Shown piece by piece: positions 22,603-32,821 of a DNA stretch of 64,000 bases; within the stretch, counting starts at the first letter, position 1, and each line of letters begins with the position of its first letter. A program made the position numbers and the translations under genes. This DNA is from an uncultured Faecalibacterium sp. (GTDB taxonomy: Bacteria; Bacillota; Clostridia; Oscillospirales; Ruminococcaceae), in the NCBI GenBank assembly GCA_934561555.1, contig CAKTGQ010000010.1, forward strand, positions 1 through 64,000, read 5' to 3'. The notes under the pieces are model-generated. The model had not been told where the DNA came from. It was given only the letters and a program-made list of their open reading frames with translations, and ran no database searches.

Positions 22603-23301
22603 ATGGCAAACGAAAAGATCCTTGTGGTGGACGACGACGCCAACATCTGCGAGCTGCTGCGGCTTTACCTGACCAAGGAGGGCTATCAGGTCACGGTGGC
22701 AAACGATGGCGAAGAGGGACTGGAAAAGTTCAACGCCGTCAAGCCGGACATGGTGCTGCTGGACGTGATGATGCCCCGCATGGACGGTCTTGAGGTCTGC
22801 CGCCGCATCCGCAAGGCGGGCAACACCCCCGTGATGATGCTTACCGCCAAGGGCGAGACCTTCGACAAGGTGCTGGGTCTGGAACTGGGCGCGGACGATT
22901 ACATGGTAAAGCCCTTTGACGCAAAAGAGGTGGTGGCGCGCATCAAGGCGGTGCTGCGCCGCTGCCAGACGACCTCCGCTGCCGCCGAGAGCACCGAGGG
23001 CGTCATTGAGTTTGATAACCTGCGGCTGGATATGAACAGCTACGAGCTGCGGGTCAAGGGCAAGGTGGTGGAAGCTCCCCCCAAGGAGCTGGAACTGCTG
23101 AACTGTCTGGCCTCCCACCCCAACCGCGTGTACACCCGCGACCAGCTGCTGGACGAGGTATGGGGTTTTGAATACTACGGCGACAGCCGCACCATTGATG
23201 TCCACGTCAAGCGCCTGCGCGAAAAGCTGGCCGGTGCTTCCGATAAGTGGGAGCTGAAAACCGTCTGGGGCGTGGGCTATAAGTTCGAGGTGCGTCAGTA
23301 A
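22603..23301 (+). CDS. OmpR/PhoB-family response regulator
   Basis: 232 residues: receiver domain with acidic pocket Asp10-Asp12, phosphoacceptor Asp54 (VLLDVMMP), Thr82 and Lys104 (VKPF), then a winged-helix DNA-binding domain (about 130-230, SRTIDVHVKRLREKL). A TATAAT hexamer at 22517-22522 is a likely -10. GGGGAGG lies 9 nt before the ATG. The stop overlaps the kinase start by one base (TAATG), typical of coupled two-component pairs. Regulon unknown. Confidence 0.95.
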   Translation: MANEKILVVDDDANICELLRLYLTKEGYQVTVANDGEEGLEKFNAVKPDMVLLDVMMPRMDGLEVCRRIRKAGNTPVMMLTAKGETFDKVLGLELGADDYMVKPFDAKEVVARIKAVLRRCQTTSAAAESTEGVIEFDNLRLDMNSYELRVKGKVVEAPPKELELLNCLASHPNRVYTRDQLLDEVWGFEYYGDSRTIDVHVKRLREKLAGASDKWELKTVWGVGYKFEVRQ

Positions 23302-24830
23302 TGCGTAAAAGTATCTCCACAGCCTTTTTCTCCATGGTGTCCACCCTGATGGTGCTGGGCATCGTGCTGATGGGCTGCTCGGAGTGGGTGCTGTTCAAGA
23401 GCTATTTTGCGAAGGATCGCTATGAAACGCTGGATCAGGTAGTGAACGTTGCCAAGCGCACTGCGGAGTATCTGGTAAACAGCGGGACTATGCCGCAGGG
23501 CGCAGAGCTGGATGCATTGAACACCAAGTTGGAGATCATCGGCGAGAGCGCCGAGGCGTATCTGTTCTTCACGGACGGACAGGGTAATGTGCTCATCGCT
23601 TCCGACCCGGCAAAGCTTACCACCGGCACCGTGCCGCTGGATATCTGCCAGCGCGCCAACGCAGTGGCAGACCCGGACGCCCGGCACTACCACGCTTTCA
23701 GCGACTTGGGCGGCGCACTGACCGAAAAAAGCTATATCTCGGTGGTGCAGACCACGGATGCGCAGAGTCCGGTCTGCGGCTGGCTGTTTTTGTGCTCCTC
23801 CGGCGCACAGCTTACCGACTTCAAGCAGCAGTTCTGGTCGAACTTCCTCATGTCCGCCTGCGTGATGCTGCTGTGCGCCAGCGTGCTGACCCGCCTGTTG
23901 ATGCGTCAGCTCACCGACCCGCTGCAAAAAGTCACCGATGCAGCCCAGCGCTTTGGCGGCGGCGACCTCTCCGTCCGCGTGGAGGGCGTGGAGGGCGATG
24001 GTGAGGTGGCAGACCTTGCCCGCACCTTTAACCAGATGGCAGAGAACATCCAGTCCAACGACAACTCCCGGGGACAGTTCATGGGCAACATCGCCCACGA
24101 GCTGCGCACCCCCATGACCACCATCAAGGGCTTTGTGGACGGCATTCTGGACGGCACCATCCCGCCCGAGATGCAGAACCACTATCTGCAGCTGGTCAGC
24201 GAGGAGACCGGGCGTCTGGCGCGGCTCATCCAGAATATGCTGGATCTTTCCAAGCTGGAAAGCGGGGAGTATCAGGTGAACGCCCGGATGTTCAATATCT
24301 GGGAGACTCTGACCGGCGTGGCGCTGGCGGCAGAGCAGCGCATCAACGACGGCATGATCGAGCTGGAAGGCCTGACCATGGACGAAAAGGTGCTGGTCTA
24401 CGCCGACCCCGACCTGATCCATCAGGTGGCATATAATCTGCTGGACAACGCCATCAAGTTCACCCCGGCGGGCGGCACCATCCGCTTCAGCGTGGAAAAG
24501 CTTGGCCCCGAGGCCGAGATCTCCATCTGGAACTCCGGGCAGGGCATCAGCCCGGAGGCGCTGCCCTATGTGTTCGAGCGGTTCTACAAGGAGGACCGCT
24601 CCCGCGGCCTGCACGCCCGCGGCTCCGGCCTTGGGCTGAACATCTGCAAGGTGCTGGTCAATCTAGCCGGCGGGCAGATCCGCGTGGAGAGCCAGCAGGG
24701 CGAGTGGTGCCGCTTTGTGTTCACCCTGCCCACCTGTTCCCCCAACCCCGGCGGCATGAAGCGCCTGCCGGACGCCGCCGGTCAGCCCGGCGCGGTGGAG
24801 GACCCCGCCAGCATGAAGCCGGTAGAATAA
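23301..24830 (+). CDS. Sensor histidine kinase, HAMP type
   Basis: 509 residues: membrane helix about 8-33, an extracytoplasmic sensor of about 140 residues, second membrane helix about 178-200, HAMP linker, HisKA with phosphoacceptor His266 (GNIAHELRTPMTT), and HATPase with N box YNLLDNAIKF and G boxes GSGLGLNIC. A short acidic proline-rich tail follows. The periplasmic part resembles dCache/PAS-like sensors (AEAYLFFTDGQGNVLIAS) but its ligand is unknown. It pairs with the upstream regulator. Confidence 0.93.
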   Translation: MRKSISTAFFSMVSTLMVLGIVLMGCSEWVLFKSYFAKDRYETLDQVVNVAKRTAEYLVNSGTMPQGAELDALNTKLEIIGESAEAYLFFTDGQGNVLIASDPAKLTTGTVPLDICQRANAVADPDARHYHAFSDLGGALTEKSYISVVQTTDAQSPVCGWLFLCSSGAQLTDFKQQFWSNFLMSACVMLLCASVLTRLLMRQLTDPLQKVTDAAQRFGGGDLSVRVEGVEGDGEVADLARTFNQMAENIQSNDNSRGQFMGNIAHELRTPMTTIKGFVDGILDGTIPPEMQNHYLQLVSEETGRLARLIQNMLDLSKLESGEYQVNARMFNIWETLTGVALAAEQRINDGMIELEGLTMDEKVLVYADPDLIHQVAYNLLDNAIKFTPAGGTIRFSVEKLGPEAEISIWNSGQGISPEALPYVFERFYKEDRSRGLHARGSGLGLNICKVLVNLAGGQIRVESQQGEWCRFVFTLPTCSPNPGGMKRLPDAAGQPGAVEDPASMKPVE

Positions 24831-24836
24831 GACCCC

Positions 24837-24871
24837 GCAGCCAGACTGCCCCGCCCGGGCGGTCTGGCTGC
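24837..24871 (+). terminator. Terminator after the two-component operon
   Basis: GCAGCCAGAC pairs with GTCTGGCTGC across a GC-rich loop, followed by TTTGGCGTTTTT. Confidence 0.75.
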
Positions 24872-24883
24872 TTTGGCGTTTTT

Positions 24884-25195
24884 GCCCTCTCAGGCGCTCC
24901 CGCGCCAGATTCCCCCTTTTGTCGCTGCGCGACATCTTCCCCCGGAGCGGGGGAAGTCTTTCCTCAAAGGGGGAGCCAAGCCGTTAGCCTCGATGCTAAA
25001 GCACTAGGTATAACGAGAAAGCTTCCGGCAGTGCTCTTGGCTCTCCCGTTGGGAGAGCTGTCACCGAAGGTGACTGAGAGGGCGCACGCTGTCAGCCCTG
25101 TTGCTAAAGTATCAGGCGCAATGAGAAACTTTCCGGGTGCGCCAGAGGCTCCCCCCTCGGGGGAGCTGGCATCGCGCAGCGATGACGGAGAGGGT
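24884..25195. repeat. Long family B array
   Basis: Two to three family B modules in a row: CCCTCTCAGGCGCTCC start, GTCGC-TGC-GCGAC, CTTCCCCCGGAGCGGGGGAAG, GTCACC-GAA-GGTGAC followed by TGAGAGGG, then a further module with CTCCCCCCTCGGGGGAG and CATCGC-GCA-GCGATG ending GGAGAGGG. The A/T-richer internal segment (GCTAAAG..AT.AGG..TAA.GAGAAA) occurs twice. Confidence 0.75.
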
Positions 25196-25284
25196 TCGTT
25201 CCCCCGCTCAAGATAACGCCGCAGCCCGCCTTATGGACTTTTTGCGCTATTTACGACTTTTCGGTGAAAAAAACAGCTGCGGGT

Positions 25285-25313
25285 TTGATTTTTTGGCCGT
25301 TTTCATGTAAACT
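25285..25313 (+). promoter_or_regulatory. Promoter of the rpe-rnf-like operon
   Basis: -35 TTGATT (25285-25290), 17-bp spacer, -10 TAAACT (25308-25313). A leader of about 95 nt follows. Confidence 0.65.
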
Positions 25314-25322
25314 AAAGAATAA

Positions 25323-25376
25323 CCATGCCCGCGTGTTCTTCGGGTGGGAAAAGCCCGCAAAACACGCAACGCATGG
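25323..25376 (+). ncRNA. Structured leader RNA of rpe
   Basis: Three nested stems: CCATGC/GCATGG (25323-25328 with 25371-25376), GCGTGTT/AACACGC (25331-25337 with 25361-25367) and CGGG/CCCG (25341-25344 with 25354-25357), loop TGGGAAAAG. No T run follows, so any control would be translational. It matches no riboswitch I know. Confidence 0.45.
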
Positions 25377-25406
25377 GATAAAATTTGCTAAAAATAACGG
25401 AGCGTA

Positions 25407-25451
25407 ATGAAATATTATGGCCATCGTAAGTCCTTCGATTCTTTCTGCTGA
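25407..25451 (+). CDS. Possible 14-codon upstream frame overlapping rpe
   Basis: ATG 25407 reads MKYYGHRKSFDSFC then TGA, overlapping the first 35 bases of rpe in another frame. It sits 4 nt from GGAG while the rpe ATG is about 14 nt away, so ribosomes may load here first. Could be chance. Confidence 0.25.
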   Translation: MKYYGHRKSFDSFC

Positions 25452-26067
25452 TTTTGGCAAGCTGGGTGCAGACTGCCGCATGGTGCTGGACGCCGGTGCG
25501 CAGATGCTGCACTATGATGTGATGGACGGGCATTTTGTGCCCAACATCAGCTTTGGCGTGCCGGTGCTCAAAAGCCTGCACAAGGCGCTGCCGGATGCCT
25601 TTTACGACGTGCATCTGATGATCAGCCATCCGCTGCAATACGCCGAGCCTTTCATCAAGGCCGGTGCGACCCTGTATAATTTCCATCTGGAGTGCGAAGA
25701 TGATATTCAAGCCACCATTGATGCCGTGCGTGCGCTGGGCTGCAAGGTGGGTCTGACCATCAAGCCCGGCACCCCGGCCGAGGCACTGGCGCCGTGGCTG
25801 GAGCAGCTGGATCTGGTGCTGGTGATGAGCGTGGAGCCCGGCTTCGGCGGGCAGAAGTTCATGCCCTCGGCGCTGGATAAGCTGCGCTGGCTCAAGGCGG
25901 AGCGGGAAGCACGCGGCCTTTCCTACCTGCTGGAGGTGGACGGCGGCGTGGATGCCGCCACCGCACCCCTGTGCGTGGAAGCCGGTGCCGATGTGCTGGT
26001 GGCGGGCAGTGCCGTGTTCGGCGCTGCCGACCCCGCTGCGGCTGTGGGCGCGCTGGCCAGCCTGTAA
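25417..26067 (+). CDS. rpe: Ribulose-phosphate 3-epimerase
   Basis: A 216-residue TIM-barrel enzyme interconverting ribulose 5-phosphate and xylulose 5-phosphate in the pentose phosphate pathway. Motifs PSILSADF (6-13), HYDVMDGHFVPN (32-43), DVHLM, VEPGFGGQ and EVDGG are intact, covering the metal ligands and catalytic aspartates. It opens an operon with three Rnf-like membrane proteins, 12 bp upstream of the first; the metabolic link is not obvious. The distance from GGAG to ATG is unusually long (about 14 nt). Confidence 0.95.
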   Translation: MAIVSPSILSADFGKLGADCRMVLDAGAQMLHYDVMDGHFVPNISFGVPVLKSLHKALPDAFYDVHLMISHPLQYAEPFIKAGATLYNFHLECEDDIQATIDAVRALGCKVGLTIKPGTPAEALAPWLEQLDLVLVMSVEPGFGGQKFMPSALDKLRWLKAEREARGLSYLLEVDGGVDAATAPLCVEAGADVLVAGSAVFGAADPAAAVGALASL

Positions 26068-26079
26068 GGAGGCTCGTAT

Positions 26080-27099
26080 ATGGATGAAGCTTTGATCCAA
26101 GAGCAGGAGCGACAGCTGCAAAAGACCGGCCGATACTATAAGCACGTTTTCTGGCTGTGTGTGCCGCTGCTGTGCATGGCCTGCTATTTCTACGGCGCAC
26201 GTCCGCTGCTGCTGTGCGGCATCGCTCTGCTCACCGGCAACCTGTGCGACCGTCTGGTGGCGCTGCTGCGCCATCGGGTGTACACCAATAAAGATCTCTC
26301 CAACGAGAGTTTCAGCCTGATCATCGCCCTGCTCATGCCTGCCACCGTGGACATCTATGTGCTGGTGGTGGCGGTGCTGGCGGGCGTGCTCATCGGCAAG
26401 GAGGTCTTTGGCGGCTACGGCAGCTACCCCTTCAACCCCGCTGCCGTGGGCTACGCCGTGGCGGCGGTATCGTGGCCGGAGCAGGTGGTGCGCTACCCGC
26501 AGCCCTATACGCCGCTGCCGCTGTGGAACGCCTCCGCCGTGCCGGTGAGCAGCACCATCGAGGATACCCTGCGCAGCGGCGGTATCCTGAACCTGAATGC
26601 CCTCGCCGTCGTGCTGGGCGAGTTTGCCGCCCCCATGGGCACCGGCGCTGCGCTGGTCATTCTGGCCTGCGGTCTTGTGCTGTGGGCCCAGAAGGACGTG
26701 CACATCGGTGCATCGGCAAGTTTTCTCATCACCTGCGGGCTCATCGCCTTCTTCTTCCCGCGTCAGGTGGGTCTGGCAGACAGCGCCTTCTTCAGCAGCC
26801 TGCTGCCCCGTTTGCAGGGCATCTGGGACGAGCTGCAAACCGGTGCGGTGCTGTTCTGTGCAGTGTTCCTGCTCAACGAGCCCTACACCTGTGCCCACCA
26901 CCGGCTCGGGCGCATCCTGTACGGCGCACTGGTGGGTGCTGCCACTATGGGCTTCCGCTATTTCGGCGTGTACGAGACCGGCGTCTGCTTTGCGCTGCTG
27001 GCTGTCAACAGCGTTTCTGCGCTCATTGACCGCACCGAGGAGCGGCTGTACCGTCTGCTGCACCGTCTGCCGTCCGAACGAAAGGAGGCTGCGGAATGA
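26080..27099 (+). CDS. rnfD: RnfD/NqrB-like membrane subunit, divergent
   Basis: A 339-residue polytopic protein aligning with RnfD of the ferredoxin:NAD oxidoreductase (Rnf/Rsx) complex. The signature FGGYGSYPFNPAAVGY (110-125) matches the RnfD pattern GG.G.NPFNPA..GY, and the C-terminal half has the usual membrane helices and a short charged tail. The covalent-FMN loop of RnfD (S-x-A-T-P-L) is altered to PVSSTIED; Thr159 could still accept FMN but the motif is degraded. AAGGAGG precedes the ATG by 9 nt. The stop overlaps the next gene by 4 bp. Only D, E and A-type subunits are encoded here; B, C and G are absent from the window. Confidence 0.85.
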   Translation: MDEALIQEQERQLQKTGRYYKHVFWLCVPLLCMACYFYGARPLLLCGIALLTGNLCDRLVALLRHRVYTNKDLSNESFSLIIALLMPATVDIYVLVVAVLAGVLIGKEVFGGYGSYPFNPAAVGYAVAAVSWPEQVVRYPQPYTPLPLWNASAVPVSSTIEDTLRSGGILNLNALAVVLGEFAAPMGTGAALVILACGLVLWAQKDVHIGASASFLITCGLIAFFFPRQVGLADSAFFSSLLPRLQGIWDELQTGAVLFCAVFLLNEPYTCAHHRLGRILYGALVGAATMGFRYFGVYETGVCFALLAVNSVSALIDRTEERLYRLLHRLPSERKEAAE

Positions 27100-27821
27100 A
27101 AAAGCGTACTGCGGAACTGATTTTGCAAGACCCCGAAAAATTTGCCCATCATGACCGTGTGTTCCTGAATAACCCGGTGGTCATGCAGGGCATGGGTCTG
27201 GCACCGCTGGTGGTCGTGGCCACCACCGGTCAGAACAGCCTGATGCTGGCGGCGGCGGTGGCGCTGCTGCTGGTGCCCTCCCGCGTGCTGGCCTGTCTGC
27301 TCAGCCGCCTTGTGCCCCTGCGGGACGAGGAGCCTTCGCCGGAGCAGCTGCAAAAAAAGCTGCTGCCCCGTGCGATTCTGTACGCAGCCAGCGCCTCTGC
27401 GGTGTACTTGGCAGCGTATCCCATTTTGAACTTCGTGTTCGGCACGGGTCTTTTGAACCTTGGCATCTACCTGCCCATGCTGGTGGTGGAGCCGCTTCTG
27501 ACCTACCGCTTCGGCCGCGTGCAGGAGACGGTGCATAAGGCGGTTTCCAAGGGCGTGCGTATCACCGTGGGCTACGCGCTGCTGCTGCTCGTAATTGGCA
27601 TGGTGCGCGAGTGGCTCAGCCTTGGCACCGTGTTCGGTGCTCCGGTGGGGCGCTGGGCGCTGCTGCCGCTGGCTAAGATGCCGGCGGGCGGCTTTATCGT
27701 GCTGGGCATCCTGTGCGCCATCTGGCGCGCTGCGGCTGCAAAGCGCAGGGAATATCTGCAAAAAGAAGCGCGGGATACCCTGACCGTGCACCATCAAAAG
27801 GAGGTGGACCGCGAACCGTGA
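27096..27821 (+). CDS. rnfE: RnfE/RsxE-like membrane subunit lacking cluster cysteines
   Basis: 241 residues, six predicted membrane helices, aligned to RnfE over NNPVVMQGMGLAPLVVVATT (25-44; RnfE: NN..LVQ.LGLCPLLAVT) and VREWLSLGTVF near 170. The two cysteines that in RnfE help hold the membrane [2Fe-2S] cluster are replaced: GLC to GLA (Ala36) and TNC to VEP (Pro132). A longer hydrophilic loop follows helix 2 and the tail is basic. It overlaps both neighbours by 4 bp, so it is translated as a unit with them. Confidence 0.85.
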   Translation: MKKRTAELILQDPEKFAHHDRVFLNNPVVMQGMGLAPLVVVATTGQNSLMLAAAVALLLVPSRVLACLLSRLVPLRDEEPSPEQLQKKLLPRAILYAASASAVYLAAYPILNFVFGTGLLNLGIYLPMLVVEPLLTYRFGRVQETVHKAVSKGVRITVGYALLLLVIGMVREWLSLGTVFGAPVGRWALLPLAKMPAGGFIVLGILCAIWRAAAAKRREYLQKEARDTLTVHHQKEVDREP

Positions 27822-28429
27822 AGGAAGTTGTAAGCACCTCAGCAGTGTTTTTCAGCTATGCACTGCTGGCTATTTTTGCACAGAACGCTGTCTTTACCCG
27901 TGCACTGGGCGTGTCCCGCATGGTGCAGCTGGTGGGGGACGACCGCACCAGCAGCGCGTTGTTCGGCATGATGCTGTGCATCACGCAGATTCTGGTAGCA
28001 CCCGTGGCGTTTGCTGCCGGGCGGTTCATCGCCCCGCTGGATAACCGCGCCCAGCTGCGCCCGCTGGTGTATATCGCCAGCATTGCCGTGGTGTGTCTGG
28101 CAGAGCACTTGGTGCTGTGGCTGCTGCGCAGCCTGCCCCGCCGCGCCCAGCTGCTGCGCATCGTGCCGCTGGCCGCGCTGAACAGCGGCGTGCTGGGCAC
28201 AGTGCTGGTGGAGCGCACCCAGACCTTTACCCTTGGCGAAAGCCTTGGTTTTGGCATTGGCAGCGGCATCGGCTATGTGCTGGCGGTGCTGCTGGTCACC
28301 GAGGCGCGCCACCGCCTGCGCAGCAAAGCCATCCCCAAAGCATTCCGCGGCCTGCCCATCACGCTGGTGTATATCGGCGTGCTGGCGCTGGCAATCTATG
28401 GCTTTACCGGACATTCCGTCATCCTGTGA
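27818..28429 (+). CDS. rnfA: RnfA/RsxA-like membrane subunit lacking cluster cysteines
   Basis: 203 residues starting at GTG 27818, whose bases overlap the rnfE TGA; AAGGAGGTG lies about 11 nt upstream. Alignment to RnfA is clear at FAQNAVFTRALGVSR (20-34; RnfA: VNNFVL.QFLGLCP), ALNSGVLGT (120-128; RnfA: TTNCAVLG) and the end AFRGLPITLVYIGVLALA. Both conserved cysteines are serine here (Ser33 and Ser123). Together with RnfE this removes all four ligands of the intramembrane [2Fe-2S] cluster described for Rnf/Nqr. The protein is intact, so the change looks selected, not decay. Confidence 0.85.
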   Translation: MKEVVSTSAVFFSYALLAIFAQNAVFTRALGVSRMVQLVGDDRTSSALFGMMLCITQILVAPVAFAAGRFIAPLDNRAQLRPLVYIASIAVVCLAEHLVLWLLRSLPRRAQLLRIVPLAALNSGVLGTVLVERTQTFTLGESLGFGIGSGIGYVLAVLLVTEARHRLRSKAIPKAFRGLPITLVYIGVLALAIYGFTGHSVIL

Positions 28430-28453
28430 TGCAGACAGGGAGGAAAGGATACC

Positions 28454-29560
28454 ATGGCTAAGTATAAACGTCAGAAGGTCAAGCATTATCACCGCAGCTT
28501 TTACAGCAGGGAAACGCGCGTCAAGCACGGCATCGGCATTGCGGTGCTGGTAGTGGCAGTGCTGGCAGCCGCATGGTTTGCCGCACCCCATGTGCTGGAT
28601 TGGGCTACCCACACATGGTATACCGTGGTCAAGGACCGGGACTTGGACGCCGAAAGCGCTTCCCGCGCCGAGGCAGCAGCCTCCTCTGCGGCAGCAAGCA
28701 GCGCCGCCGCTTCGCAGGCAGCGTCTGAGCCGGAGCCGGAAGAGGAAAAACCGCTGGACGGCAAGGCCATTACCGGCGGCAGCTGGGCAGAGCTGGATGT
28801 AACTACCCTGACCGATGAAGCCGCCATCCGCGCCGCCGCCCGGCAGCTGAAGCAGCAGGGCGCAGACTACGCCCTTGTCACCCTGAAGGACGCCGCTGGC
28901 ACGGTGTACTACGCTTCCGGGGTGACAGCTGCCGCCCAAAGCATTACCGAGAACCCGGTGGATGCGGCAAGCATTGCCGCCATCCTGCGGGAAGAGGGCA
29001 TCATCCCGGCGGCACAGCTTGCCGCCTTTACCGACCCGGTGTCGGTGTACACCGACCGCAGCATGGGCGTGCACTACGATGGCAACAGTCTCTGGCTGGA
29101 TAACGTCAACGCAGCTGCAGGCGGCAAGGCGTGGATGAACCCCTTTGCCGCAAATGCAGTGCAGTATATCGGCGACCTCATTGAAGAGGTGCAGGGCATG
29201 GGCTACGAACAGGTGGTGCTTACCGGGGTGCAGTTCCCCAACATCATCACCCGCAAGCAGGACTTCGGCGCTTCCGGCGGCAAGAGCCGGGAGGGACGTG
29301 CCGCCCAGCTGACGGCAGATATCGCCGCATGGCAGACCCGCTTTGCGGGCAGCGTGACCCTGTGGGTCAGCTACCCGGACGCACTTTGCACCGCCGCCAC
29401 CGATGCCCTTGGCACCACCGGCGTGTCCCTTGGTATGGAAAATCTGCTGGTCACCAGCAGCACCGCACTGGATGCGGACAGCCGCGCTGCACTGGAGCAG
29501 GCCGCTGCCGACGCCGGTGTGCAGCACGTTGTGGTGCACGACACCGCAACATTCCGCTGA
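28454..29560 (+). CDS. Membrane-anchored DUF4015-like putative glycoside hydrolase
   Basis: 368 residues: basic N-terminus, one membrane helix (about 26-46), a low-complexity Ala/Ser and Glu/Pro linker (about 65-98), and an extracellular TIM-barrel-like domain. WLDNVNAAAGGKAWMNPF followed by ANAVQYIGDLIEEVQGMGYEQVVL and a short VQFP motif resembles the DUF4015 putative glycosidase family (there ...W.NPY..E....A.EA...GFDEI..DYVRFP). In this copy the D-Y-V-R of the family is replaced by TGVQFP, so a catalytic acid may be missing. It follows rnfA by 24 bp in the same direction, with AGGGAGG 10 nt before the ATG. Confidence 0.7.
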   Translation: MAKYKRQKVKHYHRSFYSRETRVKHGIGIAVLVVAVLAAAWFAAPHVLDWATHTWYTVVKDRDLDAESASRAEAAASSAAASSAAASQAASEPEPEEEKPLDGKAITGGSWAELDVTTLTDEAAIRAAARQLKQQGADYALVTLKDAAGTVYYASGVTAAAQSITENPVDAASIAAILREEGIIPAAQLAAFTDPVSVYTDRSMGVHYDGNSLWLDNVNAAAGGKAWMNPFAANAVQYIGDLIEEVQGMGYEQVVLTGVQFPNIITRKQDFGASGGKSREGRAAQLTADIAAWQTRFAGSVTLWVSYPDALCTAATDALGTTGVSLGMENLLVTSSTALDADSRAALEQAAADAGVQHVVVHDTATFR

Positions 29561-29592
29561 AAAGCGGTTTTTAGAGAGGGGAGGAAACCACT

Positions 29593-30885
29593 ATGAAACT
29601 GACTACCTGTTTTGCACCTGCACACATCCTGCTGCCTTCGGAGCAGGTGCCGCTGGAACAGTGGGGCTGCATCGCCTGTGACCAGTTCACCAGCGACCGC
29701 AGCTACTGGCAGCGGGCAGAAGAGACCGCTGCGGGTGCGCCCAGTACCCTGAACCTGATCCTGCCGGAGGTGTATCTGGAGGACGGAGACGCCGATGCGC
29801 GGGTGGAAAAGATCCACGCCACCATGCAGGATTATGCCAAAAACGTGCTCACCCGGGCGGTGGACGGCTTTATCTATGTAGAGCGCACCGAGCAGAGCGG
29901 CCGGGTGCGGCAGGGCCTTGTGGGGCGTGTGGATCTGGAAGCTTACAGCTACCGCCGGGGCGAAAAATGCGCGGTGCGCCCCAGCGAGTGCACCGTGGAA
30001 AGCCGCATCCCGCCCCGCATGAAGGTGCGCACCGGCGCTGCGCTGGAAACGCCCCACATCATGATGCTGGCGGACGACCCGGACTGCACCCTCATCGAGC
30101 CCATTGCCGCCCACAAGGACAGCCTGCCCAAGGTATACGAGGGAGAGCTGATGCTGGGCGGCGGTCATGTGGCAGGCTGGGCGGTGGAGGACCCCGCTCT
30201 CATCGCGCAGATCGAAAACGCACTGACCGTGCTGGGCAGTCAGGAAGAATTTGACAAGAAATACCCCGATGCCACCCGCCGCGACCCGCTGACGCTGGCG
30301 GTGGGCGACGGCAACCACTCGCTGGCTACCGCAAAGGCCTGCTGGGAGGAGCTGAAAAAGACCCTGACCCCGGAGCAGGCAGAGAACCACCCCGCCCGCT
30401 GGTGTCTGGCAGAGGTGTGCAACGTGCACTCCCCGGCTATTGAGATCGAGCCCATCCACCGGGTGCTGTTCAACGTGGACTGCGCCACCGTACTGCTGAG
30501 CCTCATCACATGGAGCGATGCCAACATGGCAGGCTGCTGCTTTGGCGGCAGCAAAAAGCAGCCCTTTACGCTGGCGGGCCCCCACATGGCCAATGTGCTC
30601 AGCTTTGAGGACCCCACCGAGCCGCTGACCGTGGGCACCATCGACGATTTTATTTCGGATTATATGGCACGCCACCCGGAGGCAAAGGTGGACTATGTGC
30701 ATGACGAACCGGCTGTGCGCGCTTTGTGCAAGCAGGGCGCAGTGGCGTTTTTAATGCCGCCCTTCGCCAAGAGCGATCTGTTCCGCGGCGTTGTGATGGG
30801 CGGCGTGCTGCCCCGCAAGACCTTCAGCATGGGACACGCGGAGGAAAAGCGCTACTACATCGAGTGCCGGAAGATCACAGAATAA
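29593..30885 (+). CDS. DUF1015 family protein
   Basis: A 430-residue cytosolic protein of the DUF1015 family. The family's core motif [11 protein letters not shown] lies at 237-247, and the N-terminus (FAPAHILLP...[16 protein letters not shown]) is characteristic. DUF1015 proteins contain a ParB/sulfiredoxin-like nucleotide-binding fold and often sit beside serine biosynthesis genes in other Firmicutes, but the function is not settled and no serA/serC is present here. GGGGAGG precedes the ATG by 6-7 nt. It continues the same direction as the upstream operon, 32 bp after DUF4015. Confidence 0.85.
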
Positions 30886-30895
30886 TAGGAGAACC

Positions 30896-32821
30896 ATGAC
30901 ATTTAAAGAACTGAATCTGTCCGCCCCGCTGCTGCGCGCTGTGCAGGAAGCGGGCTACGAGACCCCCTCGCCCATTCAGGCGGCGGCCATCCCGCCGGTG
31001 CTGGCTGGCCGGGATCTGATGGGCTGCGCCCAGACCGGCACCGGCAAGACGGCGGCTTTTGCGCTGCCCATGCTGGACCGGCTCACCGCCAACGCACCCC
31101 GCCGCAAGGGTGCCGTCCGCGCGCTGATTTTGACCCCCACCCGGGAGCTGGCCTTGCAGATCGGCGAAAGCTTTGAGGCCTACGGAAAGTATCTGAAGCT
31201 GCGCAGCACCGTCATCTTTGGCGGCGTGGGACAGGCACCGCAGGTGGAAGCGCTGAAAAAGGGCGTGGACATCCTCATCGCCTGCCCGGGACGGCTGAAT
31301 GATTTGATCGGGCAGGGCTTTATCGACCTGTCCGCTTTGGAGATCTTTGTGCTGGACGAGGCCGACCGGATGCTGGACATGGGCTTTGTCCATGACGTGA
31401 AAAAGGTCATTGCAAAGCTGCCCGCCCAGCGCCAGAACCTGATGTTCAGCGCCACCATGCCCGCCGAGATCGAGCAGCTGGCTGCCGGTATCCTGCACGA
31501 GCCTGCCTTTGTCAAGGTGGACCCGGTGTCCAGCACCGTGGACCGCATCCAGCAGAGCCTTTACTATGTGGAAAAGGGCAACAAAAAGCTGCTGCTGCCG
31601 TGGCTCATCAAAAATTTGCAGCCGCCGGTGGTCAACGCACTGGTGTTCAGCCGCACCAAGCACGGCGCGGATAAGATCGCAAAGGACCTGACAAAGCAGG
31701 GCATCCCCGCCGCCGCCATCCACGGCAACAAGAGCCAGACTGCCCGCGTGACCGCGCTGGAGGATTTCAAGTCCGGCAAGACCCGGGTGCTGGTGGCCAC
31801 CGATATCGCCGCACGCGGCATTGATATCAGCGAGCTTTCCCATGTGTTCAACTACGACCTGCCCGAGGTACCGGAGACCTATGTGCACCGCATCGGGCGT
31901 ACTGCCCGCGCCGGTGCGGACGGCACCGCCGTCAGCTTCTGCGCCCCGGAGGAGCAGGAGTATCTGGCAGGCATCGAAAAGCTGAACCGCCGCAAGATCC
32001 CGGTGGTGTCCGGCCATCCGTGGGACGGTGTGCCCGCCCCGGTGCGCCCGGTGCTGCCCGTGCGCGGCAAAAAGCCCCGCCCCGAAGCAGAAAAACCGGC
32101 CGAAGCGCCGAAAAAACAGGCCGAAACTGCGCCCGCAAAAGCCGCAAAGGCAGCTGCGCCCGCGCCGAAGCAGGAGCCGAAGGCCGCAAAGAACGCGGTG
32201 CCTGCAAAACCGAAAAAAGAGGAAACACTGATGCAAGACAGCAACGCAAAGCGCGGCCCCCGCAACGACCGCCGCGCCAACAACCGGGGCGCAAACGCCC
32301 CCAAGGAGGCGGCAGCGCCCCGCGCCCGCCGCGAAAATGCCGCCCCCGCCCGGGGCAGCAACGCCCAGCCCAAGTTTGACCCCCATTTTGTCAGCGCCCC
32401 GGAGGCCACCCCGCTGCGCCCGGCACGCAAGACCCCTGCCGCCCCGGCAGCACCTGCCATTCGCAGCGCACAGGAACCCCAGAATAACCAGAACGCGAAC
32501 CGCAGCGGCAGCCGCCGCAATGACCGCAACGACCGGGGTGAGCAGCGCAATGCCCGCCCCGCAGCCCAGAACAATAATGCCCGCCCTGCCCGCAACGAGC
32601 GCGGCAATGCCGGGAACCAGAGCCGCCCCGGCAGCGCACCTCGTGCCCCCAAGGCCGAGCCTGCCCGCCGCGGCCGCAATGCCGCCGCCCGGGACGAGGA
32701 CCCGGGGCTGATGCTCATCAGCCGCCGCCCGCCCCAGCAGAAGTACACCAGCTTTGAGGAGTATATGGACGCTCACGGCGGTGCCACCGCACCCATTGAG
32801 GATCACAGCGAAGAAGTATGA
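30896..32821 (+). CDS. DEAD-box RNA helicase with long basic low-complexity tail
   Basis: 641 residues. The helicase core (1 to about 375) has [21 protein letters not shown] (in VLDEADRML), SAT, ARGIDIS and [10 protein letters not shown], so it is an ATP-dependent RNA helicase of the CshA/RhlE type. From about 380 on is an Ala/Lys/Pro-rich then Arg/Asn/Gly/Ala-rich disordered tail of about 260 residues, likely binding RNA or promoting condensates. Inside the tail, ATG 32231 (residue 446) is preceded by AGAGGA at good spacing, so a separate tail-only product is possible. AGGAG precedes the first ATG. The stop overlaps rlmA by 4 bp. Confidence 0.93.

Follow-up and report, generated by a model that had tools for sequence, protein, structure and literature searches.

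In a stretch of 64,000 nucleotides from an uncultured Faecalibacterium sp. (assembly GCA_934561555.1, contig CAKTGQ010000010.1), hereafter the window, three overlapping genes encode homologues of the membrane subunits RnfD, RnfE and RnfA of the Rnf complex (RnfABCDEG, a ferredoxin:NAD+ oxidoreductase), which we call D*, E* and A* (Table 1). We conclude that this trio is very probably the functional, redox-silenced core of an Rnf paralogue and not an electron pump. Judged from its sequence, the loss of the carrier sites excludes that the trio acts as the known electron pump, and its long retention in related bacteria indicates that it was probably put to a new use.

The frames of the three genes are intact, with overlaps of 4 bases at both the D*/E* and the E*/A* junctions and a GGAGG-type site before the start of each gene, and the products match their Pfam families above the cut-offs (E = 3.8e-56 for D* with PF03116; 1.3e-22 and 7.4e-23 for the two PF02508 proteins, E* and A*), which bears out an earlier sequence-only reading of this DNA that had described three overlapping, intact Rnf homologues in the order D-E-A. 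Likewise, the solved structures related to D*, E* and A* are those of Rnf and Nqr subunits. Scores against the NCBIfam models are far under the cut-offs, with 134.6 of 207 bits for rnfD, 45.4 of 213 bits for rnfE and 74.4 of 229 bits for rnfA. As that reading had also stated, no rnfB, rnfC or rnfG adjoins the trio in the gene order of the window.

Table 1. Positions of the trio and of the genes on either side of it in the window.
Gene	Position	Strand	Product	Remark
rpe	25417..26067	+	Ribulose-phosphate 3-epimerase	Leads the conserved block
D*	26080..27099	+	RnfD-like subunit, 339 aa	PF03116; without canonical flavin mononucleotide (FMN) motif
E*	27096..27821	+	RnfE-like subunit, 241 aa	PF02508; Ala36 and Pro133 at ligand positions
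A*	27818..28429	+	RnfA-like subunit, 203 aa	PF02508; GTG start; Ser33 and Ser123 at ligand positions
X	28454..29560	+	DUF4015-like protein	PF13200, E=1.1e-12; 48.1 bits, cut-off 27

To the four cysteine ligands of the [2Fe-2S] cluster that Rnf holds between RnfA and RnfE correspond Ser33 and Ser123 of A* and Ala36 and Pro133 of E*; the earlier reading had named the first three of these residues correctly and had placed the fourth at Pro132. We compared the window with 92 divergent loci, of which 53 came from a scan of named genomes (Faecalibacterium, Gemmiger, Fournierella, Anaerofilum, Pygmaiobacter, Ruthenibacterium and kin) and 39 from a scan of same-family genomes, and with 14 canonical loci. 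The relatives were selected by a match to RnfA or RnfC, and the alignments are close to the twilight zone for the most distant rows; two loci, L088 and L092, duplicate L035 and L070 and are counted in the ligand, flavin-column and neighbour tallies and excluded from those of the riboflavin pair, X residues and pocket residues. Cys is lacking at A33, E36 and E133 in every row of the window and the divergent loci (0 of 93, 0 of 92 and 0 of 92 rows with Cys, respectively). The second RnfA ligand, A123, remains a Cys in 38 of 93, and the canonical rows have the full set of four Cys (14/14). By these alignments, three of the four ligands are lost throughout the divergent set and all four are lost in the window. 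Sequencing error at the four codons, cysteines retained in close strains and conserved cysteines located elsewhere, all of which the earlier reading had raised against itself, did not hold: strains at 96-97% identity carry identical residues at the ligand positions, and none of the 57 loci of the Faecalibacterium subclade has Cys at A33, E36 or E133.

The flavin site of D* is altered as well. The motif PVSSTIED, recognized earlier, is present at residues 155-162, and the A-T-P-L pattern of canonical RnfD is absent. Which residue aligns to the flavinylated Thr depends on the aligner (T159 with MAFFT, V154 with phmmer); in the flavinyl column, all 14 canonical rows have Thr and the 92 divergent rows have mostly Ser (48) or Gly (31), with Thr in 9, and a TP dipeptide is left in the motif region of just 3 of these 92 rows. 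The predicted fold of D* is that of RnfD/NqrB, according to both its structure model and its structure matches. Many D* proteins have gained a Cys at positions 197 (78/92) and 303 (65/92), where canonical RnfD has Gly and Ser.

The trio is conserved as a unit. Of the 92 divergent loci, 91 contain D, E and A together, the exception (L052) being interrupted by a contig end, and rpe lies on the same strand 5' of D in all 91 trio loci, at most 2188 bases away, so that the rpe-D-E-A order whose search in relatives had been proposed was indeed found. Gene X follows on the same strand 3' of A in 78 of the 91. Since the gene starts of the relatives came from a simple caller that yields antisense false genes, neighbours were recounted with profiles; when the repeat loci L088 and L092 are excluded, rpe is counted in 89 of 89 loci, X in 76 and an RnfC homologue, C*, in 16. 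The order rpe-(C*)-D-E-A is retained while the flanking genes vary, and neither RnfG nor RnfB was found in the examined neighbourhood of the trio, be it in the window or in the 91 trio loci. The frames of the trio are intact in both close strains and distant genera, and many residues are conserved in each of the three proteins. Ratios of non-synonymous to synonymous substitution rates (dN/dS) between the window and seven relatives are 0.04-0.25 for D, 0.09-0.30 for E and 0.14-0.28 for A (0.015-0.15 for rpe and 0.11-0.47 for X), and by this sequence measure D, E and A are under purifying selection.

In the window, the rpe product matches TIGR01163 with 250.9 bits (cut-off 212.6), 12 bases separate rpe from D* and 24 bases separate A* from X. 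The earlier reading had placed the trio in one operon with rpe and the DUF4015-like gene: the adjacency is conserved, and a single transcript for the block is not demonstrated, since a promoter scan of positions 24800-31000 found no sigma-70-like promoter and the same interval holds 14 terminator-like sites, some of them within genes, against 5.2 in shuffled sequences.

Canonical Rnf genes coexist with the trio in the nearest genome examined (G001), in which PF02508 has two strong matches on contig C6 (225 and 174 bits) and two weak ones, from the trio, on contig C76 (84 and 83 bits), four in all. Contig C6 carries a complete canonical operon in the order C, D, G, E, A, B, the kind of second rnf operon that the earlier reading had suggested looking for. 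A canonical rnf may therefore also be expected in the window's own strain. Among 13 FMN_bind matches across the G001 genome, one lies in the canonical operon and none on contig C76.

The C* gene is part of the system in some relatives and absent in the window, a point beyond the sequence-only reading. It lies directly 5' of D* in 16 of the 91 trio loci, and all 16 C* proteins retain the eight Cys of two 4Fe-4S clusters and have lost the NADH/FMN loop, with a DERDG-type sequence in place of GLGGAGFP and a DAIDDEPYVSSQ-type sequence in place of NAECEPYITSD. The FMN-binding domain scores 21.9 bits in one C* and 35.6 bits in a second (cut-off 31.2), compared to 139 bits in canonical RnfC. Searches of whole genomes detected C* with at least 264.9 bits in 36 of 119 family genomes, tallied by score and with 21 of the loci read, and the next match had 185.8 bits. 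The single RnfC-type match of G001 (128.8 bits) is its canonical RnfC, and three Faecalibacterium genomes gave no C* match at E 1e-55. Across the class, matches outside the order reached 213.8 bits; the one locus read there was L200 of genome G527, and the others were assumed canonical. In a tree of D (57 rows; rpe-linked group 99/95), which has long branches (L184, L121, L126, L120 and others) and few columns for L097, loci without C* are nested within C*-bearing ones (94/86), so that loss would be the likelier direction of change for C*.

Outside these loci, the block is also found as rpe-C*-D-E-A in families f5 (L183) and f24 (L185, L193-L197) and as rpe-D-E-A-X in family f23 (L184). All eight of these loci lack Cys at A33, E36 and E133, A123 is Cys in L185, L193 and L194, and the seven with C* retain the 4Fe-4S motifs and have lost the loop. 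In other loci, of families f3 (L209, L210, L211) and f7 (L215), the subunits are canonical, having four Cys as well as the FMN motif, and B and X come after them; L212 of f3 is of canonical type and cut after A. Two genera have intermediate operons. In g155 of family f3 (L199, L205-L208), the order is C-D-G-E-A-B-X (B undetected in L208), D retains its TPL motif, three of the four ligands have been lost (and in L206 the fourth too), the C loop is altered to GLGGSA.P and the RnfG frame of L206 has just 80 aa. In g124 of family f7 (L213, L214), the operon is reduced to C-D-E-A-X, none of the four ligands persists and the D motif is ANPL; the RnfE-like protein of this genus is extended N-terminally by ~310 residues, many of which are Ala, Pro or charged (L213:4653-6197, L214:4857-6374).

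A tree of D+E+A was built after removal of the ligand and flavin-motif columns; ten of its rows, including the window, L213 and L214, have an unusual letter make-up. All 21 rpe-linked rows form one group (100/100), which on sequence grounds points to a single origin of the rpe-linked copies, with g124 beside them (100/99) and the canonical L215 next (97/94). Genus g155 (100/100) is nested in the f3 set (100/99), and this placement of g155 versus the rpe-linked and g124 rows implies at least two separate losses of the cluster ligands within the lineage. Such repeated loss had not been foreseen in the earlier reading. Outside all of these branches L200, a Cys-depleted operon from another family of the class with C, D, G, E and A, in which three of the four ligands are gone, A123 is still Cys and the C loop and D motif are retained.

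The protein X, taken as anchored, has one hydrophobic N-terminal stretch (residues 26-44, by hydropathy), and its structure model is a glycosidase-like TIM barrel (predicted local distance difference test score 82.9) that best matches 4s1a_A (Cthe_0052) and then glycosidases. Of the acidic residues that may be catalytic, it keeps D194 and D216, and it has Thr at position 257. Asp occupies position 257 in 16 of the 22 loci that have a C gene, L199 with its nearly canonical RnfC among them, and in 4 of the 61 that have none. X also stands behind canonical rnf operons of other families, which had gone unmentioned in the sequence-only reading: it lies behind B in four canonical-operon loci of f3 and f7 and occurs in 6 of 6 canonical rnf loci of family f47 (L216-L221), which have all four Cys, three of them with a B-X gap of ~2 kb; these f3, f7 and f47 loci were chosen for C and X on one contig or for their family. 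From this position, X is a candidate Rnf partner. DUF4015-like matches exist in 83 of 291 genomes of the class, and in L222 X is present with no rnf genes within 16 kb. X is missing beside 13 of the 91 trios and beside six f24 blocks, and three f24 genomes carrying the block gave no X match at E 1e-15; by gene content, X is not obligatory for the trio.

What the trio might do is suggested by its former cluster site. E* has Glu132 next to the lost ligand position Pro133, and within the Faecalibacterium subclade this position is acidic (E or D) in 57 of 57 loci, as opposed to Asn in 15 of 15 canonical ones, while A33 is Ser and A122 is Asn in 56 of 57 loci each. We tentatively propose that this site now serves transport or ion conduction. 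The trio itself is very probably what remains of the membrane part of an old Rnf paralogue, without recognizable electron-carrier sites and without electron-coupled ion pumping. According to the proposal, D*, E* and A* would associate as their Rnf counterparts do. In Rnf, the interface of A and E switches between inward- and outward-facing states about the cluster; that of A* and E* would operate in a redox-free manner. It would most likely form a conduit or transporter that depends on cations or protons, with the polar and acidic groups Ser33, Asn122 and Glu132 lining the pocket once occupied by the cluster and with X as a partner outside the membrane. Still more cautiously, the whole history could be that of an electron-driven ion pump turned stepwise, with intermediates still extant, into a redox-free membrane transporter or channel, its pocket refilled by a carboxylate and polar groups, that works with the extracellular glycosidase-like partner of the ancestral pump. 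The fold, the carboxylate that was gained and the fact that A and E were kept as a pair agree with such a transporter or channel. Of the earlier suggestion of a repurposed Rnf core that is no electron pump, the repurposing is supported, and the 'transporter or carrier scaffold' remains a guess.

Several observations weigh against this proposal, in which transport itself is a guess drawn from sequence and fold. The carboxylate at E132 is confined to one subclade, with Asn in 22 of 28 C*-bearing loci, and the Cys that persists at A123 in 38 of 93 rows is an RnfA ligand. The residues of the Na+ path of A. woodii are only partly kept: R67 of RnfE is retained as Arg92, and T110 of RnfA corresponds to Ala120, E115 of RnfE to Gly140 and E88 of RnfA to His97. 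The retention of D* is unexplained, because RnfD has no known transport role in Rnf according to excerpts of PMC11889175. In addition, an RnfA match was found in 112 of 119 same-family genomes, 83 of which have two or three matches and 29 just one, so that some members of the family may lack the divergent copy. Finally, the retention of X argues for a platform and the retention of D*, together with the C* clusters and the riboflavin pair of relatives, argues for leftover redox chemistry, as considered below.

A structural platform, in which D*, E* and A* move nothing and hold X, and formerly also C*, in a membrane assembly acting on the envelope, appears rather unlikely to us. X does follow A in most trio loci as well as canonical rnf operons in other families, and its fold is akin to that of cell-wall or glycan hydrolases; however, it is missing beside the 13 trios and six f24 blocks mentioned above, the three f24 genomes without an X match carry the block nonetheless, and three conserved polytopic proteins would be needless for a bare platform. 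We hold it for clearly improbable that D* binds riboflavin non-covalently and that, in relatives, the 4Fe-4S pair of C* feeds a short relay to an unnamed acceptor. Such leftover redox activity would agree with the conservation of the eight Cys in 16 of 16 C* and with Asn119 and Glu267, which D* retains at the positions of the riboflavin residues N123/D249 of A. woodii RnfD (excerpts of PMC11889175) and of which the N119 + D/E267 pair is kept in 25 of 28 loci with C*. However, both residues are kept in just 29 of 74 loci without C*, these loci are related by descent and their association with C* does not represent independent events, no exit carrier (G, FMN or 2Fe-2S) is left and C* is absent in Faecalibacterium (three genomes, at the threshold used).

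The chances are slimmer still that A*, E* and D* replace or regulate the canonical Rnf subunits as exchange or assembly partners, as could be thought from the presence of both sets in G001. RnfA is matched just once in each of the five g155 genomes and in all but one of the five g124 genomes, these genomes being 84-98% complete, and the loci read there (in five g155 and two g124 genomes) are Cys-depleted, an argument that covers these intermediate genera and not the rpe-linked clade. Least credible of all is a decaying pseudo-operon without function, or a sequencing or alignment artefact: many cofactor sites are gone and C* is absent in this lineage, but frames intact from close strains to distant genera, dN/dS far under 1, a block order common to 91 of 91 trio loci and the many residues conserved within each of D, E and A stand against it, and the selection and gene-order data contradict it.

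A redox-silenced Rnf core can be set against known systems. Compared to the Rnf complex, the homologous membrane subunits D, E and A and their structure matches are shared, but the trio is without [2Fe-2S] ligands, FMN motif and adjoining B, G or C; canonical RnfC has an NADH/FMN site, whereas the window locus has no RnfC and the C* of relatives no loop. The Na+-NQR is an Rnf paralogue without RnfB, and its NqrA is an RnfC homologue that lost cofactors (excerpts of PMC4014512 and PMC12174285). It retains the [2Fe-2S] cluster in NqrD/E as well as flavins and is a working pump, while the trio family shows the reverse, with the C* clusters kept and the A/E cluster lost; no NqrF- or NqrC-like gene was found among the window neighbours scanned, a subset of the window genes. 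In Nqr/Rnf-like two-subunit systems, an NqrB/RnfD-like subunit is without the flavinylated Thr (excerpts of PMC10979944); an NAD-binding domain is fused in these systems, which also include an NqrC/RnfG-like partner, whereas D* is accompanied by E* and A* and lacks an FMN-binding partner subunit. As far as these excerpts go, there are thus precedents for partial cofactor loss, in NqrA and in the Nqr/Rnf-like D subunit. X matches the DUF4015 putative glycosyl hydrolases (PF13200) above the cut-off and in its best structure match, and differs from them by its N-terminal hydrophobic stretch, its rnf-type operon setting and, in loci without C*, by mostly lacking Asp at 257. In the open-licence literature, we found no paper on Cys-less Rnf subunits, on loss of the A/E cluster or on a second rnf of this kind, and none linking DUF4015 with rnf; the single paper naming DUF4015 there does so only in a legend on domain fusions.

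Other genes near the block were also recorded. A response regulator and a HAMP histidine kinase lie upstream of rpe (22603-24830 in the window), and a same-strand cluster is found at their position in 41 of 91 loci. Near rpe, a cluster of HtrA-like proteases, named by eye from sequence, occurs in 12 of 91 loci, and in 23 of 91 trio loci, including L095, rpe is separated from C* or D* by a gene of opposite orientation that was taken by eye for MecA. The next gene 3' of X encodes a DUF1015 protein (29593-30885), whose cluster follows X or A in 15 loci.

If the trio is counted as Rnf in genome-based metabolic models, energy-conserving enzymes would be overcounted in a major gut genus. The genomes of the order of Faecalibacterium present a graded series, from complete Rnf with all ligands through a complete operon with its ligands lost and C-D-E-A lacking B and G to D-E-A alone. 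This series allows testing which parts of Rnf do something besides electron transfer, and whether A and E may move ions without the cluster, a matter central to the pumping mechanism of Rnf.

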